Assembly: GCF_900102905.1 (NCBI RefSeq)
Contig: NZ_FNFV01000005.1
Coordinates: 62,001 to 126,000 of the forward strand
DNA: 64,000 nt
Direction: 5' to 3'
DNA from: Meinhardsimonia xiamenensis
Lineage (GTDB): Bacteria; Pseudomonadota; Alphaproteobacteria; Rhodobacterales; Rhodobacteraceae
A model generated the notes under the pieces. That model saw only the letters and a list, made by a program, of their open reading frames with translations. It had not been told where the DNA came from and ran no database searches. The position numbers were made by a program, and so were the translations under genes. Shown here in pieces: positions 57,112 to 64,000 of this stretch; position 1 is the first letter of the stretch, and each line of letters starts with the position of its first letter.

Positions 57112-57777
57112 TCAGGCGAGGCCGCGCTCGCGGTCTGTCGCCACGGGCACGTGGCGCAGCCAGTCCGCATAGTCCCCGGTCGTGGCGCGGCGATGCAGCT
57201 CGCGCAGCGCGCACAGAGGGTCGTCGGGATGGAAATCGATGCGCAGGGTAAGCGGCGGCCGGTTCCGGCTCAGGACGAGGAGCGCCGCAGATTGCAACCC
57301 GCGATGGTCGCCACCCGCTTCCGCGGCCGCCTCGAGCGCCGCGAGCAGCCGCTCGTCGAGCGGGCCTGCGGTGGCGCGGAACCCGTCCACCAGCGCGGCC
57401 AGAACGCCCTCGTCGCTCAGCATGTTGCCGGCGGCAACGCCTCCGTCAAACAGCACGTGCCCCTTGGCATCGCCGTTTCGCGCGCCGGTGAAGGCGGCGC
57501 CTTCTCCTCCTTCGGAGAGCGCCGAGAGCTGCCGCCATTCGCGGCCGCGATCGCTGCCGACGACCCTGTCGAGTGCCGCCTGCGCAGACATGCCCTCGCG
57601 CAGCAGCGTCAACACATCCTCGCCCCAGAACGTGGATGGCGCCGCGCCCTGGCTGGCGGACATGCCCGCCCCCAGAGCGCCCCTCAGCACCCAGCCGCCC
57701 ACGCACAGGCTTCCCGTGGCCGCCGCACCGCCGATGGCTCCCGTCTGCGCGTCGCGGGCGAGAATGGAAAAGGTCAT
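57112..57777 (-). CDS. DUF1028 family protein
   Basis: A 221-residue DUF1028 protein with an Ntn-hydrolase-like start: MTFSILARDAQTGAIGGAAATGS, and the conserved GLQSAALLVLSR. Members are assumed to be amidohydrolases or peptidase-like and often travel with peptide transporters. I start it at ATG 57777, behind CACGGAGGTGTGCG; a longer frame would run through the inverted-repeat operator. It is divergent from the ABC transporter, and the shared operator suggests that it processes what the transporter brings in. Confidence 0.87.
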   Translation of the reverse strand: MTFSILARDAQTGAIGGAAATGSLCVGGWVLRGALGAGMSASQGAAPSTFWGEDVLTLLREGMSAQAALDRVVGSDRGREWRQLSALSEGGEGAAFTGARNGDAKGHVLFDGGVAAGNMLSDEGVLAALVDGFRATAGPLDERLLAALEAAAEAGGDHRGLQSAALLVLSRNRPPLTLRIDFHPDDPLCALRELHRRATTGDYADWLRHVPVATDRERGLA

Positions 57778-57798
57778 CGCACACCTCCGTGCGCGAAG

Positions 57799-57841
57799 AA
57801 TTATCATGATAAATTGACCGGCGCAATTTATCATGATAATT
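57799..57841. promoter_or_regulatory. Perfect 18-bp inverted repeat operator
   Basis: AATTATCATGATAAATTG (57799-57816) and CAATTTATCATGATAATT (57824-57841) are exact inverted copies with a 7-nt spacer, and each arm contains the 12-bp palindrome TTATCATGATAA. It is strikingly AT-rich for this DNA and lies 22 bases from the DUF1028 start and 77 bases from the binding-protein start. The likely reader is the GntR-type gene at the end of the operon. The two inner palindromes, 27 bp apart, suggest two dimers. Confidence 0.82.
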
Positions 57842-57917
57842 TGCACGCATCATGGATGGGCAGCGTCCGCGACCAGGCGCCCATGCCGAAAGATGCCAGA
57901 CAGGGAGACCGTGACCG

Positions 57918-59507
57918 ATGACCTTTCGCCATCCGACTCGCCGGGGCTTTCTCGCCTCGACCATGAGCAGCCTGGCCGCCCTTGCCGCGGCCGGGGCCAT
58001 GCCGCGCCGGGCTCGTGCCGCCACGCCGCCGGGGGTTCTGGTGGTGGGGCAGATCGCCGAGCCAAAGGCGCTCGACCCTGCGGCGGTCACGGCGGTCAAC
58101 GACTTCCGCATTCTCGTGAACCTCTACGAGGGCCTGACCCGCTACAAGCCGGGCACGCTCGAGGTGGCGCCTGGGCTGGCCACCGACTGGACGATCAGCG
58201 ACGACGGCACGGTCTACACCTTCACCCTGCGCGAGGGCGTGCGCTTTCATGACGGTACGCCCTTCGACGCCGAGGCGGTGAAGTTCAACTTCGATCGCAT
58301 GCTCGACGAGAGCCATCCCTACCACGACACCGGCCCGTTTCCGCTGGCGTTCTTCTTCGGATCGGTTGCCAAGACCGAGGCGCTCGATCCGCGCACGGTG
58401 CGATTCACGCTGAACGAGCCCTACGCGCCCTTCCTGTCGAACCTCGCCTATCCCACGGGGCTCATCGTCTCGCCCGAGGCGGTGAAGCGGCACGGCAAGG
58501 AGTTCGGCCGCAACCCGGTGGGCACCGGACCCTTCCGCTTCGTCGAGTGGCGCTCCAACGAGGCGGTGGTGATCGAGCGCAACCCCGATTACTGGGGCGA
58601 GAAGGCCGGCACCGAGGCGGTGATCTTCCGCCCGATCACCGACGCGAACACCCGCGTTGCCGAGATGCTGGCCGGCGGCATCGACCTGATGGTGGAGGTG
58701 CCGCCCACCTCACTGGCGCAGTTCCGCGGCGGAGGCTTCTCGATCGTCGAGCAGGCCGGCCCGCACCTGTGGTTCCTGATCCTCAACTGCAAGGAGGGCC
58801 CCTTCGCCGACAAGCGGGTGCGCCAGGCGGCCAATTACGCCATCAACAAGGAAGCGATCGTGAACGACGTGCTCGAGGGCACGGCCACGGTGGCCGCCGG
58901 ACCCATTCCGCCGGCCTTCAACTGGGCCTACAACGACGCGCTCGAGCCCTATCCCTACGACCCCGACAAGGCCCGCGCGCTGATCGAAGAAGCCGGCGCG
59001 GCCGGCGCGAAGCTCGTCTTCTACGTCACCGAGGGCGGTTCGGGCATGCTCGATCCGGTGCCGATGGGCACCGCCATTCAGGCCGATCTCGAGGCGGTCG
59101 GCTTTGATGTCGAGATCAAGACCTTCGAATGGAACACCTTCCTCGGACAGGTGAACCCCGGCCTCGAGGGCAAGGCCGACATGGCCGAAATGGCCTGGAT
59201 GACCAACGATCCCGACACGCTTCCCTACCTGGCCTTGCGCACCGAGGCCTGGCCCGACAAGGGCGGCTTCAACTCGGGCTACTACTCGAACCCGAAGGTG
59301 GACGAGCTGCTGGAGAAGGCGCGCACCTCCACCGATCAGGCCGAGCGCGCGCGCCTCTACAAGGAGATGCAGGTCATCGTGCATGATGATGCGCCCTGGG
59401 TCTTCGTCGCCAACTGGAAGCAGAACGCCGTCACCAGCGACCGGGTGAAGAACTTCCGGCTCGAGCCGTCCTTCCTTCTGCACCTTGCATCGGTGGTGAA
59501 GGAGTGA
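57918..59507 (+). CDS. Peptide-type ABC transporter substrate-binding protein
   Basis: A 529-residue extracellular binding protein of the SBP_bac_5 (DppA/OppA) family. A Tat signal is visible (TRRGFLASTMSSLAALAAAG), with cleavage likely near residue 35 (ARAATPP). Family segments: VAPGLATDWTISDDGTVYTF and VKFNFDRMLDESHP, and NPVGTGPFRFVEW. It captures peptides, modified peptides or similar solutes for the permeases encoded downstream. First gene of a five-gene operon (57918 to the GntR gene). Confidence 0.93.
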   Translation: MTFRHPTRRGFLASTMSSLAALAAAGAMPRRARAATPPGVLVVGQIAEPKALDPAAVTAVNDFRILVNLYEGLTRYKPGTLEVAPGLATDWTISDDGTVYTFTLREGVRFHDGTPFDAEAVKFNFDRMLDESHPYHDTGPFPLAFFFGSVAKTEALDPRTVRFTLNEPYAPFLSNLAYPTGLIVSPEAVKRHGKEFGRNPVGTGPFRFVEWRSNEAVVIERNPDYWGEKAGTEAVIFRPITDANTRVAEMLAGGIDLMVEVPPTSLAQFRGGGFSIVEQAGPHLWFLILNCKEGPFADKRVRQAANYAINKEAIVNDVLEGTATVAAGPIPPAFNWAYNDALEPYPYDPDKARALIEEAGAAGAKLVFYVTEGGSGMLDPVPMGTAIQADLEAVGFDVEIKTFEWNTFLGQVNPGLEGKADMAEMAWMTNDPDTLPYLALRTEAWPDKGGFNSGYYSNPKVDELLEKARTSTDQAERARLYKEMQVIVHDDAPWVFVANWKQNAVTSDRVKNFRLEPSFLLHLASVVKE

Positions 59508-59587: not shown

Positions 59588-60531
<944 letters not shown>

Positions 60532-60535
<4 letters not shown>

Positions 60536-62406
60536 CCGCCTTCCTTCAGCGTCTGGCCCGCAACCGTCTTGCCGCCGCCGGGGGCGCGATGCTGGCGCTC
60601 ATCGTGCTGGTGGCGCTCGCCGTGCCGCTCCTGCCGCTGCAGGATCCGAACGCCACCGCCACCGCCGAGCGCTTCGCCCGCCCCCTCTCCGAGGGCCATC
60701 TTCTGGGCACCGACCATCTGGGGCGCGATCTGCTTTCCCGCCTCGCCCATGGCACCCGGCTGTCGCTGGCGATGGGGTTTGCCGCAGCGCTCATCGCCGC
60801 CGTGCTCGGCTCGGTTCTCGGTATCGTCGCGGGCTTTCTCGGCGGGCGGGTGGACAATGTCATCATGCGCGGCGTCGACATGCTGATGGGGTTTCCCTAC
60901 GTGCTCCTGGCGCTGGCGATCGTCGCGGCGCTGGGGCCGGGGCTCGTCAACGCGCTGATCGCGGTGGCCGCCGTCAACGTGCCCTTCTTCGCCCGCAACA
61001 TCCGTGGCGTGACGGTCGCGCTCGCGGGGCGCGAGTTCGTCGATGCCGCGCGGCTGTCGGGCATGGGCAACCTGCGCATCATGGCGGTGGAGATCCTGCC
61101 CAACGTGCTGCCGGTGATCGTCATCGCCCTGACCACGACGACCGGCTGGATGATTCTCGAGACGGCCGGGCTCAGCTTTCTCGGCCTCGGCAGCCAGCCG
61201 CCGCAGGCCGACCTCGGCTCGATGCTGGGAGAGGCGCGCGCCGCGCTCATCTCGCACCCCCATGTCGCGGTGGTGCCGGGGGTGATGATCTTTCTCGTGG
61301 TCATGTCGATCAATCTTTTCGGCGACGGCGTGCGCGACGCGCTCGACCCGCGGCTTGGGGCCGGGGCGCTGACCCGCCCGCTGCCGGCCACCGTGGTGGA
61401 CCGGCCTGCGCCGCCCCCGCTGCGGGAGCCCGACCCGCCCGCGCTGCTCGCGATCGACGATCTCAGGACCGAGTTTCGCCTCGGCCGGCGCGTGCTGCCG
61501 GCCGTGGACGGGGTCAGCCTGTCGCTCGGGCGGGGCGAGGCGGTGGGGCTCGTGGGCGAGTCGGGCTCGGGCAAGTCGGTGACGGCGCTTTCGGTGATGC
61601 GCCTCGTGGCGTCGCCGCCCGGGGTCATTGCCGGCGGGGCGGTGCGGCTCGACGGCGAAGAAGTGATCGGCGCGCCGTTCGAGGTGCTGCGTGCCCTGCG
61701 TGGGCGGCGCGTGGCCTATGTGTTCCAGGATCCGCAGGCCACGCTGCACCCGCTCTACCGCATCGGCGACCAGCTGGCCGAGGCGATCCGCGCCCACCAG
61801 CCGATGGGGGCGCGGGCGGCGCGCGTACGGGCGCTGGAGCTGCTGCGCGATGTGCGCATGCCCCGCCCCGAGGACCGGATCGACGACTACCCGCACCAGC
61901 TGTCGGGCGGGCAGCGGCAGCGCGTCGGCATTGCCATGGCGCTTGCCAACAACCCTGACGTCATCATCGCCGACGAGCCGACGACGGCGCTGGATGTCAC
62001 GGTTCAGGCGCAGATCCTTGCGCTGCTCGAGCGTCTGCGGCGCGAGCGCGGCCTTTCCATCCTGTTCATCACCCATGACTTCGGTGTGGTCGCCCAGCTC
62101 TGCGAGCGGCTCGCCGTGATGTACGCCGGGCGCATCGTCGAGGAGGGACCGACGGCCGAGGTTCTTGCCGCGCCGGCCCACCCCTATACCCGCCGGCTGA
62201 TCGCCTGCGTGCCCGAGCCCGGTGCCGGGCGCCGGCGGCTCGAGGCCATCCCGGGCCTGCCGCCGCGGCTCGACGCGCTGCCGCCCGGTTGCGCCTTCGC
62301 CCCCCGCTGCCACCGTGCCCGGCCCGACTGCGGCGCGGGCGACATTCCCCTGCGCCGCGCGGGCGCGCGCGCGGTGCGCTGCCTCCATCCCGAGACGACG
62401 CCATGA
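60532..62406 (+). CDS. Fused ABC permease and ATPase (DppC-DppD type)
   Basis: A 624-residue fusion. Residues 1-285 form a DppC-type permease (FAPL-like start, [24 protein letters not shown] loop [19 protein letters not shown]). After a short Pro-rich linker ([19 protein letters not shown], about 285-305) an ATPase follows: Walker A GESGSGKS, signature LSGGQRQR, Walker [13 protein letters not shown] and the peptide-type Cys-rich tail [14 protein letters not shown]. One membrane half and one ATPase half are therefore made as one chain; the partner halves are the DppB- and DppF-type genes. Confidence 0.92.
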
Positions 62407-63368
62407 CGAGCATCCCGGCACTGAAGGTCGAGGACCTGCGCAAGACCTTCGGGGACCGCGCCCCGCTTCTGGGCCGCGCGCGGGCCGGGGTGCAGGCGGT
62501 GCGCGGCGTCTCCTTCGCGGTGGCACCGGGGGAGACGCTTGCCATCGTCGGTGAATCGGGGTCGGGCAAGTCGACGCTGGCGCGCATGCTGGTGGGCCTT
62601 CTGCCGCCCACCGCGGGGCGCATCGAGATCGAGGGCAGGGCGCTCGATACCGCCGACCCCGCCCGCTTCGGGCGGCTCATCCAGTATGTGTTTCAGGATC
62701 CCGCCGGCAGCCTCAACCCCCGCCGCAGCGTGCGCCGCATTCTCGAGACCCCGCTGAAACTCCTGCACCGGATGCCGCGGGCGGCACGCGAGAAGCGGCT
62801 TGCCGAGCTTCTCGCCGCCGTCAGCCTGCCGGCCGACGCGCTCGACCGCTACCCGCACGAATTCTCCGGCGGGCAGGCGCAGCGCATCGGCATCGCCCGG
62901 GCGCTGGCCGCCGATCCGCGCATCCTGGTGCTCGACGAGCCGGTGTCGGCGCTCGATGTCTCGGTGCAGGCGCAGGTGCTGAACCTGCTTGCCGACCTGC
63001 AGCGGCGCATGGGCCTGACCTATCTGTTCATCACCCATGACCTCGCCGTGGCCGAGGCGGTCTCCGACCGCGTCATGGTGCTCTACTTTGGCGCCGTGGC
63101 CGAACTGGGGCCGGCGCGCGAGGTCTTTGCAAGCCCGGCCCATCCCTATACGAAGCTTCTGGCCGACAGCGCGCCGGTTGTCGGCCGGGCGCTGCGGGCG
63201 CCCGAGGCGGCGGAAGCCGAGCTGCCCGACCCGCGCCATCCTCCCGCGGGCTGCGCCTTTGCCGGCAGGTGCCCGCGCGCCGACGCCCTGTGCCGCGCGC
63301 AGGAACCGCCACTGGAAGAGATCGGAGATGACCGACTTGCCGCCTGCCACCACCCGCTCCGCGAATGA
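62403..63368 (+). CDS. ABC transporter ATPase (DppF type)
   Basis: A 321-residue ATPase of the oligopeptide/dipeptide family. Walker A is GESGSGKS, the signature reads FSGGQAQR, Walker B is ILVLDEPVSALD, and the tail PPAGCAFAGRCPRADALC is typical. It pairs with the ATPase half of the preceding fusion. The start overlaps the fusion stop (ATGA), and the GntR gene starts 41 bases inside its end. Confidence 0.93.
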   Translation: MTSIPALKVEDLRKTFGDRAPLLGRARAGVQAVRGVSFAVAPGETLAIVGESGSGKSTLARMLVGLLPPTAGRIEIEGRALDTADPARFGRLIQYVFQDPAGSLNPRRSVRRILETPLKLLHRMPRAAREKRLAELLAAVSLPADALDRYPHEFSGGQAQRIGIARALAADPRILVLDEPVSALDVSVQAQVLNLLADLQRRMGLTYLFITHDLAVAEAVSDRVMVLYFGAVAELGPAREVFASPAHPYTKLLADSAPVVGRALRAPEAAEAELPDPRHPPAGCAFAGRCPRADALCRAQEPPLEEIGDDRLAACHHPLRE

Positions 63369-64000
63369 GCCGAGGACAAGCCGGCCCTTCCGCGTTGCCG
63401 AGGCGATCAAGGGCTGGGTCGTCGAACAGGGGCTGAAGCCCGGCGACCGGCTGCCGCCGGAGGCGGAGCTGATCGAGCGCTTCGGCGTGTCCAAGGGAAC
63501 GGTGCGCGAGGCCATGCGCCTGCTCGAGGCGCAGGGGCTCATCAAGACGCGCACCGGGCCGGGCGGGGGCAGCTTCGTTCACGAAGTCAGCCGTCAGCGC
63601 ACCAAGGCGCTGCTGGCCAACTACTTCTTCTTCAAGCATCTGAGCATCGACGACATCTACGAGCTGCGCGCCGTGCTCGAGCCGAAGCTTGCCGCCTCAC
63701 TCGCGGGCAAGCTGGCGCCGGAGGTTCTCGATGAACTCGGGGCGGTCATGGCAAGCTATGCCCGGCCGTCACGCACGCTCGAGGAGGAGCGCGCCCAGCA
63801 CGTGGCCTCGTTGCGCTTTCACGCCATCCTCGCCGAACAAGCCAGGAATCCGCTTCTGGGCCTCATCATCGACTTCATGGTCACGCTGCTTTCCGATCTC
63901 ACCGTCTACCGGCGGCTCTATTCGCCGCGCAACCTCGAGCTCTGGCGGCAGGGGTTCGACCACCAGTCGCGCCTGATCGCCGCGCTCAGGGAGGGCGACG
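63328..64000 (+). CDS. GntR-family regulator, FadR/FCD type (cut by window edge)
   Basis: The first 224 residues of a GntR regulator; the window ends in the gene. An N-terminal winged helix-turn-helix (RVAEAIKGWVVEQGLKPGDRLPPEAEL, then FGVSKGTVREAMRLLEAQGLI, residues 23-77) is followed by an all-helical FCD ligand domain (DIYELRAVLEPKLAASLAG onward). It overlaps the ATPase gene by 41 bases, so it is translated with the transporter. It most likely represses the operon and the DUF1028 gene through the inverted repeat at 57799-57841. Confidence 0.9.
   Translation, partial: MTDLPPATTRSANEPRTSRPFRVAEAIKGWVVEQGLKPGDRLPPEAELIERFGVSKGTVREAMRLLEAQGLIKTRTGPGGGSFVHEVSRQRTKALLANYFFFKHLSIDDIYELRAVLEPKLAASLAGKLAPEVLDELGAVMASYARPSRTLEEERAQHVASLRFHAILAEQARNPLLGLIIDFMVTLLSDLTVYRRLYSPRNLELWRQGFDHQSRLIAALREGD

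Follow-up and report, generated by a model that had tools for sequence, protein, structure and literature searches.

The window analysed here, a stretch of 64,000 nucleotides from Meinhardsimonia xiamenensis (Rhodobacteraceae; contig NZ_FNFV01000005.1, positions 62,001 to 126,000), contains a perfect inverted repeat between two divergent genes, one encoding a DUF1028 protein and the other the solute-binding protein (SBP) of a peptide-type ATP-binding cassette (ABC) importer. The question raised by this locus is which protein, if any, reads the repeat, and what is controlled through it. We find that the repeat is one instance of a pattern present in many related bacteria, in which paired palindromes at near-fixed spacing very probably place the importer and DUF1028 under one regulator. 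In our reading, to which we assign a probability of roughly 0.87, the palindrome TTATCATGATAA would serve as operator for the FCD-type GntR protein whose gene closes the ABC operon, and this regulator would control both the importer and DUF1028. What the sequences themselves show is that the sites are twinned and conserved, that they go with GntR and not with DUF1028, and that they also precede gntR in the lineage where it forms a separate gene. The elements in question are as follows.

57799-57841: the whole 18-7-18 inverted repeat, with arms at 57799-57816 and 57824-57841
57801-57812: predicted operator O1, palindrome TTATCATGATAA, DUF1028-proximal, called from sequence and conservation
57828-57839: predicted operator O2, palindrome TTATCATGATAA, SBP-proximal, with its centre 27 bp from the O1 centre

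A perfect 18-bp inverted repeat with a 7-nt spacer between divergent genes had already been described in a first-pass annotation, and direct measurement confirms it: the arms of 18 nt each are 100% complementary, are separated by 7 nt, and each hold one copy of the self-palindromic 12-mer TTATCATGATAA. This is the sole perfect repeat in the window with 18-bp arms and a spacer of up to 40, and 20,000 dinucleotide shuffles of the divergent gap (140 bp, GC content 55%) yielded zero repeats with 18-bp arms and a spacer of up to 20. The exact 12-mer is found in its two copies at this locus and nowhere else in the 3.13-Mb assembly, where a scan detected 0 sites at one mismatch and seven at two mismatches (one for the reversed control).

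Conservation was examined in 80 loci around GntR relatives in named genomes (80 kept of 124 found) and 30 loci around DUF1028 genes of the host family, the window's own included (loci are numbered with L, genomes with G). A DUF1028 match is present in 99 of the 110 loci read, and the closest named relative is Rubellimicrobium thermophilum (GntR 90%). Among 95 distinct DUF1028 upstream regions, window included, 90 carry a pair of sites 26-28 bp apart (26 bp in 2, 27 bp in 26 and 28 bp in 62); this count leaves out four identical upstream regions and the own-genome duplicates L001-L003, which are also excluded from the 110-locus tally. The remaining five regions have one exact site (L027, L042, L109 and L110) or no site (L025). 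Across the 90 pairs, the distance between sites stays at 26-28 bp in intergenic regions that measure anywhere from 75 to 176 bp, and the small residual correlation is negative (r -0.44). A single operator is seen in L109, L110, L112, L116, L117 and L042, some of which are early-branching on a quick tree, and the twin arrangement may be the derived state.

Related sequences inflate such counts, except in a set with one genome per genus, and a genome-wide test was made on 295 family genomes of this kind, allowing up to 3 mismatches for the pair. The pair was detected in 43 of them (29 at 28-bp and 14 at 27-bp spacing; 0 for the reversed-pattern control), in every case about 21-44 bp from a same-clade DUF1028 gene. 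A GntR orthologue (E below 1e-70; next match 2e-41) is encoded in 50 of the 295. Both pair and GntR occur in 42 genomes, the pair without GntR in 1, GntR without a strict pair in 8, and neither in 244 (Fisher p 1e-41). Even the eight genomes with GntR and no strict pair carry sites: one at 0-1 mismatches in G018, G050, G094, G097 and G201, two at 2 mismatches in G024, and 26-bp pairs in G065 and G214 (L013 and L017). Same-clade DUF1028 without the GntR orthologue was found in G098, G206, G230 and G271, and neither G230 nor G271 has a site in the 16 kb read. The first-pass annotation had named absence of the motif from relatives as one outcome that would overturn its proposal; the motif is present there.

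The position of the gntR gene differs between loci, and the sites differ with it. With loci whose GntR match is under 48% identity left out and near copies kept, none of the 29 operon-end gntR genes has a site within 250 bp upstream. In contrast, where gntR is a separate gene, tail to tail with DUF1028, a site precedes it in 40 of 60 loci at up to one mismatch and in 48 of 60 at up to two. Once six of these 60 upstream regions are removed, one for its shortness and five as exact or nearly exact copies, 36 of the remaining 54 separate gntR genes have a site, compared with a shuffled mean of 0.01. Five other loci fall outside both gene-order classes, and one of them has a 2-mismatch site. A wider class search gave 15 loci (14 of 385 genomes had a match; L146 came from the family search), and sites at up to two mismatches stand before the SBP or gntR gene in 11 of the 15 (L132-L138 and L141-L144). 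Beyond the family, four loci without a DUF1028 match (L112, L136, L137 and L138) still have one or two sites at 1-2 mismatches before the SBP gene. In L141-L143, which represent three species of one genus and have neither this importer nor DUF1028, a 1-mismatch site lies about 25-35 bp before gntR. Judged by where the sites occur, the palindrome is to be assigned to GntR and not to DUF1028, because sites track the separate gntR gene and persist in loci without DUF1028. The regulon with a defined operator that had been proposed from the window is thus supported by twin-site conservation, co-occurrence with GntR, sites before separate gntR genes and sites in loci without DUF1028.

The genus of L141-L143 is also of interest for its gene content. 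The site in L141 (10208-10219; also in L142 and L143) reads TTATTATGATAA and belongs to a GntR of 39% identity, and the next genes in L141 encode a branched-chain-type binding protein and a permease. The operator may have been kept in these species while the regulated importer changed type.

Two outward-facing TTG boxes stand between the palindromes, and the predicted promoter elements, whose register is our own assignment, are listed below. Percentages refer to the 26 loci of the 27-bp class.

57814-57819, + strand: predicted -35 box TTGACC of the SBP-operon promoter (TTGAC 100/100/96/96/88%)
57834-57842, + strand: predicted -10 box with TG extension (TGATAATTT) of the SBP-operon promoter, inside and just beyond O2
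57821-57826, - strand: predicted -35 box TTGCGC of the DUF1028 promoter (TTG 100/100/88%)
57798-57803, - strand: predicted -10 box TAATTC of the DUF1028 promoter, overlapping O1

In the 28-bp class (n=53), the two TTG boxes are conserved at 100/96/85% and 100/92/87%. They are not simply additional operator sequence, because the G is unconserved at the matching outer positions. On the SBP side, 17 bp separate TTGACC from TGA-TAATTT, an extended -10 over the outer half of O2, and the arrangement is mirrored on the DUF1028 side. For the comparison of half-sites, as well as for the flank and hairpin tests, we used 79 deduplicated loci of the 95, window included; loci were dropped if their mismatches totalled more than 4, if the spacing was not 27-28, if the first site was closer than 20 bp to DUF1028, or if their flanks were short or near-identical. 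Of the 948 bases in each kind of half-site, 104 are changed in the inner halves, compared with 25 in the outer halves, which face the -10 side (Fisher p 2e-13, uncorrected for relatedness). The mirrored TTG boxes and the conserved outer halves together suggest that each operator overlaps one of two divergent promoters. The register TTGACC-17-TAATTT, whose -10 matches TATAAT at 3 of 6 positions only, is a choice that we prefer over the register given by a promoter scan because its letters are the conserved ones.

From this arrangement we infer a scheme of control. A GntR dimer on each palindrome would cover the -10 region of the promoter on that side, the two promoters standing back to back with their -35 TTG boxes between the palindromes. 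While bound, GntR would silence transcription in both directions, that of DUF1028 and that of the ABC operon including gntR itself. Its release would be brought about by an intracellular ligand, for which the imported compound or a product of its breakdown is the probable candidate.

Several observations weigh against this reading. G206 has DUF1028 (60%) and the SBP (84%) yet no site; its gntR may simply be missing data, because this genome is 83% complete and its 7.3-kb contig breaks off within the SBP gene. Conversely, G098 (84% complete) has the pair and no GntR was found in it. When the comparison is restricted to the 54 genomes with DUF1028, the association with GntR is weak (p 0.02), because only 4 of them are without GntR. 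For 12 of the 60 separate gntR genes, the 250 bp searched contain no site even when 2 mismatches are allowed, and no site occupies the expected place in the outgroup loci L139, L140, L145 and L146. Moreover, one event is enough to explain the change in gene order on a quick GntR tree (support 85), so that gntR may have been rearranged only once and the new order inherited by many descendants. The sigma-70 consensus scan mentioned above did not return the predicted promoters and listed ATGATA-17-TATCAT on both strands instead. Finally, a CAAG block just outside O1, toward DUF1028, is conserved in the 28-bp class (85/87/87/66%, n=53) and is left unexplained.

Two alternatives would remove GntR from the picture. 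Instead of binding protein, the 18-bp repeat could work by folding into a hairpin, be it an attenuator, an RNA element or a cruciform, and the window's copy does fold well as single-stranded DNA (-17.4 kcal/mol, z -5.2). The nested repeat of the first-pass annotation is likewise present in the window, but the unit that is conserved is a pair of palindromes and not one nested hairpin (the 12-bp cores are fully complementary to each other in 11 of 79 loci only). Of the core-to-core pairs, 121 are changed: in 113 one side has changed and the pairing is broken, in 7 both sides have changed and it is broken as well, and in 1 the change is compensated; a single palindrome is retained in some lineages; all Rfam matches stay below their gathering scores, those on the stem being to three microRNA models; and no terminator-like site was found in a scan. 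The hairpin is largely refuted because compensatory change is missing, and we rejected it, its halves not co-varying, as barely credible. Alternatively, the palindromes could be bound by another regulator of the genome, with gntR a bystander. A candidate is BioR, whose site TTATMKATAA, as given in the available part of PMC4494728, has the same TTAT and ATAA ends as the outer letters here. However, four bases separate these ends here and two in the BioR site, and TTATMKATAA is not contained in TTATCATGATAA. In addition, of the 245 genomes that lack this GntR orthologue, 244 also lack the pair, and the sites precede gntR where it is a separate gene and accompany it in L141-L143 without the importer or DUF1028. 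BioR was rejected on spacing and co-occurrence, and another binder of this kind is very improbable.

The other two alternatives keep GntR as the binding protein. FCD regulators of both signs, activators and repressors, exist, and GntR might bind and activate, or activate one side and repress the other; for its action at this locus, the orientation and overlap of the sites are all that is known. The sites nevertheless cover the predicted -10 boxes, which is a repressor position, and the outer halves coinciding with the -10 boxes are the better conserved, so activation appears unlikely. A more serious variant, compatible with GntR control of both sides, treats the palindromes as two half-independent operators, one per gene, whose near-fixed 27-28 bp would reflect promoter geometry and not cooperative binding. 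The twin -35/-10 boxes mirror the sites, the DUF1028-side and SBP-side sites drift independently, and one site suffices in several lineages. Against it stands the spacing of 26-28 bp maintained over the whole range of intergenic lengths, a pattern read as cooperative control in the accessible text of PMC4494728. We give this variant somewhat less than an even chance.

The proposed GntR operator sits within the following set of genes, whose identities, as named in the first-pass annotation (DUF1028, peptide-type ABC importer and GntR/FCD), agree with Pfam.

57112-57777, - strand: DUF1028 protein of 221 aa with an N-terminal nucleophile (Ntn) hydrolase fold, beginning Met-Thr (Pfam 2.6e-55; 2IMH 4.3e-83; AlphaFold2 model against 2IMH, template modelling (TM) score 0.96)
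57918-59507, + strand: SBP, family 5 (SBP_bac_5; Pfam 1.2e-104; the top-scoring solved relatives are GbpA/HbpA and DppA entries)
59588-60535, + strand: ABC permease, DppB type (Pfam)
60532-62406, + strand: fused ABC permease (DppC type) and ATPase (DppD type) (Pfam)
62403-63368, + strand: ABC ATPase, DppF type (Pfam)
63328-64000, continuing to 64104 past the window, + strand: GntR/FCD regulator, predicted binder of O1 and O2 (Pfam GntR and FCD)

The regulator gene closes the ABC operon as annotated, although it is cut by the window end: its full extent is 63328-64104 (L003 8328-9104), with 104 bases outside the window, and it overlaps the ATPase gene. The DppC-DppD fusion protein has 624 aa, and the fused query aligns as a single stretch of about 1.8 kb in most relatives with a locus covering it. 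A mechanical open reading frame listing placed the DUF1028 start at a GTG at 57846, which would cross the operator; this was rejected in favour of the ATG at 57777, which gives the Met-Thr start common to clade-I relatives aligned from residue 1. Right after gntR and just past the window end (L003 9714-19499), integrase-like, terminase-like and portal-like genes were seen by eye, giving the region a prophage-like look.

The regulator combines an N-terminal GntR winged helix (Pfam 1.7e-16) with a C-terminal FCD domain (1.1e-13), the architecture of the FadR subfamily. Its AlphaFold2 model (predicted local distance difference test score 90.8) matches CGL2915 (2di3) best in the PDB, followed by GntR of S. 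agalactiae and NanR. In the recognition helix, K56, T58 and R60 are invariant among 87 distinct orthologues. According to the available text of PMC4494728, operators of this subfamily have TKGT/ACMA boxes whose G is contacted by a recognition-helix Arg, with BioR and NanR as exceptions to the consensus within the subfamily. By contrast, TTATCATGATAA and the sites of relatives are without the GT/AC pair and have CATG at the centre, and all 87 close orthologues have Lys56 at the position aligned by eye with FadR Arg45 (in a wider set of 57, Lys stands there in 54 and Arg in 3). The GT/AC-free operator leaves FadR-subfamily membership intact, because BioR and NanR also depart from the consensus. 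Many FCD domains have a metal site formed by Asp and three His. Here, H165 and H235 are invariant, the Asp position is S161 in 86 of 87 orthologues, and H212 is His in 68 of 87 and Tyr in 14. The ligand pocket may therefore differ from that of the usual FCD domain, two of the four usual metal ligands being unconserved.

The DUF1028 protein, encoded by the only such gene detected in an own-genome search, matches PF06267 with 187.7 bits (gathering score 26.2). Its AlphaFold2 model shows the Ntn alpha-beta-beta-alpha fold of 2IMH, and most of its other structural matches are to subunits of the proteasome and HslV (TM about 0.35-0.5). Residue 2 is Thr in all 115 clade-I matches and in 8 of 8 others aligned from residue 1, shorter matches not so aligned being excluded from the count, and it is invariant in 46 aligned sequences; residue 1 is Met, or Val/Leu in 9, presumably from alternative start codons. 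Thr2 is thus expected to be the N-terminal nucleophile, freed by removal of Met. Other DUF1028 genes lie in different settings. In L127 (7297-16154; also L126 and L128), a TOBE-type ABC transporter locus contains two DUF1028 genes, one per side in L127, with an amidohydrolase and an FAD-dependent oxidoreductase, and appears as another family of DUF1028 loci. In L123, L124 and L125, distant DUF1028 genes stand by gamma-glutamyltranspeptidase homologues and Dpp-like importers, which places two Ntn hydrolases side by side.

What the regulon might import and cleave was considered from neighbouring genes and from the SBP. The most frequent close neighbour is an M20 amidase of the hydantoinase/carbamoylase family (TIGR01879), found in 29 of 86 loci at a median of 91 bp, and all seven linked members scanned are over the TIGR01879 cut-off. 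Among the 27 loci that have DUF1028 and in which gntR ends the operon, 7 carry it immediately downstream of DUF1028; it is divergent from separate gntR in 25 of 60 loci (24 of the 25 with a site at up to one mismatch in the 250 bp before gntR), and takes the place of DUF1028 opposite the SBP in five DUF1028-less loci. The window genome has no linked M20 gene and carries two TIGR01879 amidases over cut-off on other contigs. Among the other neighbour clusters in the 86 loci, a 21-locus cluster overlaps the M20 gene on the other strand in the example viewed, a cluster of 13 loci (median 409 bp) gave no match in Pfam, one of 5 loci has a median of 178 bp, and the rest are at least 700 bp away. Furthermore, a gamma-glutamyltranspeptidase homologue adjoins the Dpp-like importer in the three loci with a more distant DUF1028 (L123-L125). 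In Arsenicitalea (L112 3392-4549), the importer has as its neighbour a gene for a peptidase of the NAGGN osmoprotectant system (TIGR03106), which may be a coincidence or a hint of a blocked-dipeptide substrate.

The peptide transporter of the first-pass annotation holds as a family label; at one position aligned with DppA, its binding protein has a different residue. In the SBP, the stretch WMTNDPD is two residues shorter than its DppA counterpart, and two aligned pocket stretches are nearly invariant. DppA Arg355, which we take to be a ligand contact, corresponds to Gly376 in our reading of the alignment. Asp408 of DppA forms a salt bridge with the free amino group of the dipeptide, as described in the available part of PMC3295651, and aligns with Asn430, which is Asn in 80 of 82 orthologues, though followed by an invariant Asp431. 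Taken together, the M20 linkage, this Asn and the gamma-glutamyltranspeptidase neighbours favour an imported N-blocked amide. The twin operator might then define a catabolic regulon for one such compound (an N-carbamoyl or N-acyl amino acid, or a blocked peptide), with DUF1028 as its Ntn-type amidase, in series with or replaced by M20, and with GntR reading a GT/AC-free operator through Lys in place of the recognition-helix Arg. We regard this proposal as tentative and somewhat unlikely to hold as stated; the N-blocked substrate is the weakest step of the argument, and Asp431 beside Asn430 could do the work of Asp408.

If the N-blocked amide were nevertheless correct, it would provide a first function for DUF1028. 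The regulon names the transporter that would feed DUF1028, the regulator that would sense its substrate or product, and a second amidase beside or instead of it in relatives. The predicted operator simplifies the search for the ligand and would give a direct route to the function of a nearly unstudied enzyme. A literature search returned no paper with the word DUF1028 and nothing on this regulon for PF06267, COG3342, SPO2551-SPO2557, the palindrome, or GntR combined with allantoate amidohydrolase, and the main text of a Ruegeria pomeroyi transporter screen (PMC10130141), in the part available, names no SPO255x gene.

Comparison with known systems places the locus among several partial precedents. 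SPO2555 of R. pomeroyi (PDB 2IMH) belongs to the same DUF1028 clade, with 61% identity over 220 columns. It is known by structure only: the crystal structure was released in 2006, SCOPe gives it an Ntn subfamily of its own, the available text of a review (PMC9140057) calls it uncharacterised, and no regulon was described for it in the literature found. The importer resembles the Dpp, GbpA and Gsi importers of peptides and glutathione in its family-5 binding protein and DppBCDF-type parts, and differs from them in the fusion of permease C with ATPase D and in the Asn, with its adjoining Asp, at the Asp408 position. BusR, as presented in the accessible part of PMC8517857, is likewise a single GntR regulator reading two spaced DNA motifs in a bipartite manner; it responds to c-di-AMP, and the likeness noted is one of description. 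BioR, which serves biotin genes in alphaproteobacteria, is a FadR-subfamily exception with a TTAT...ATAA palindrome free of GT/AC, although with its two central bases instead of four. The closest parallel in arrangement is offered by the double-site divergons of the FadR subfamily, as far as they are set out in the available text of PMC4494728: the present system shares with them a regulator of FCD type whose gene belongs to the regulon, and palindromes rich in A and T, two of which keep a near-constant distance within a divergent gap of variable length. It differs from them in having no TKGT/ACMA boxes, a CATG centre, Lys56 in place of Arg, and, in the window, a regulator gene at the end of the operon.

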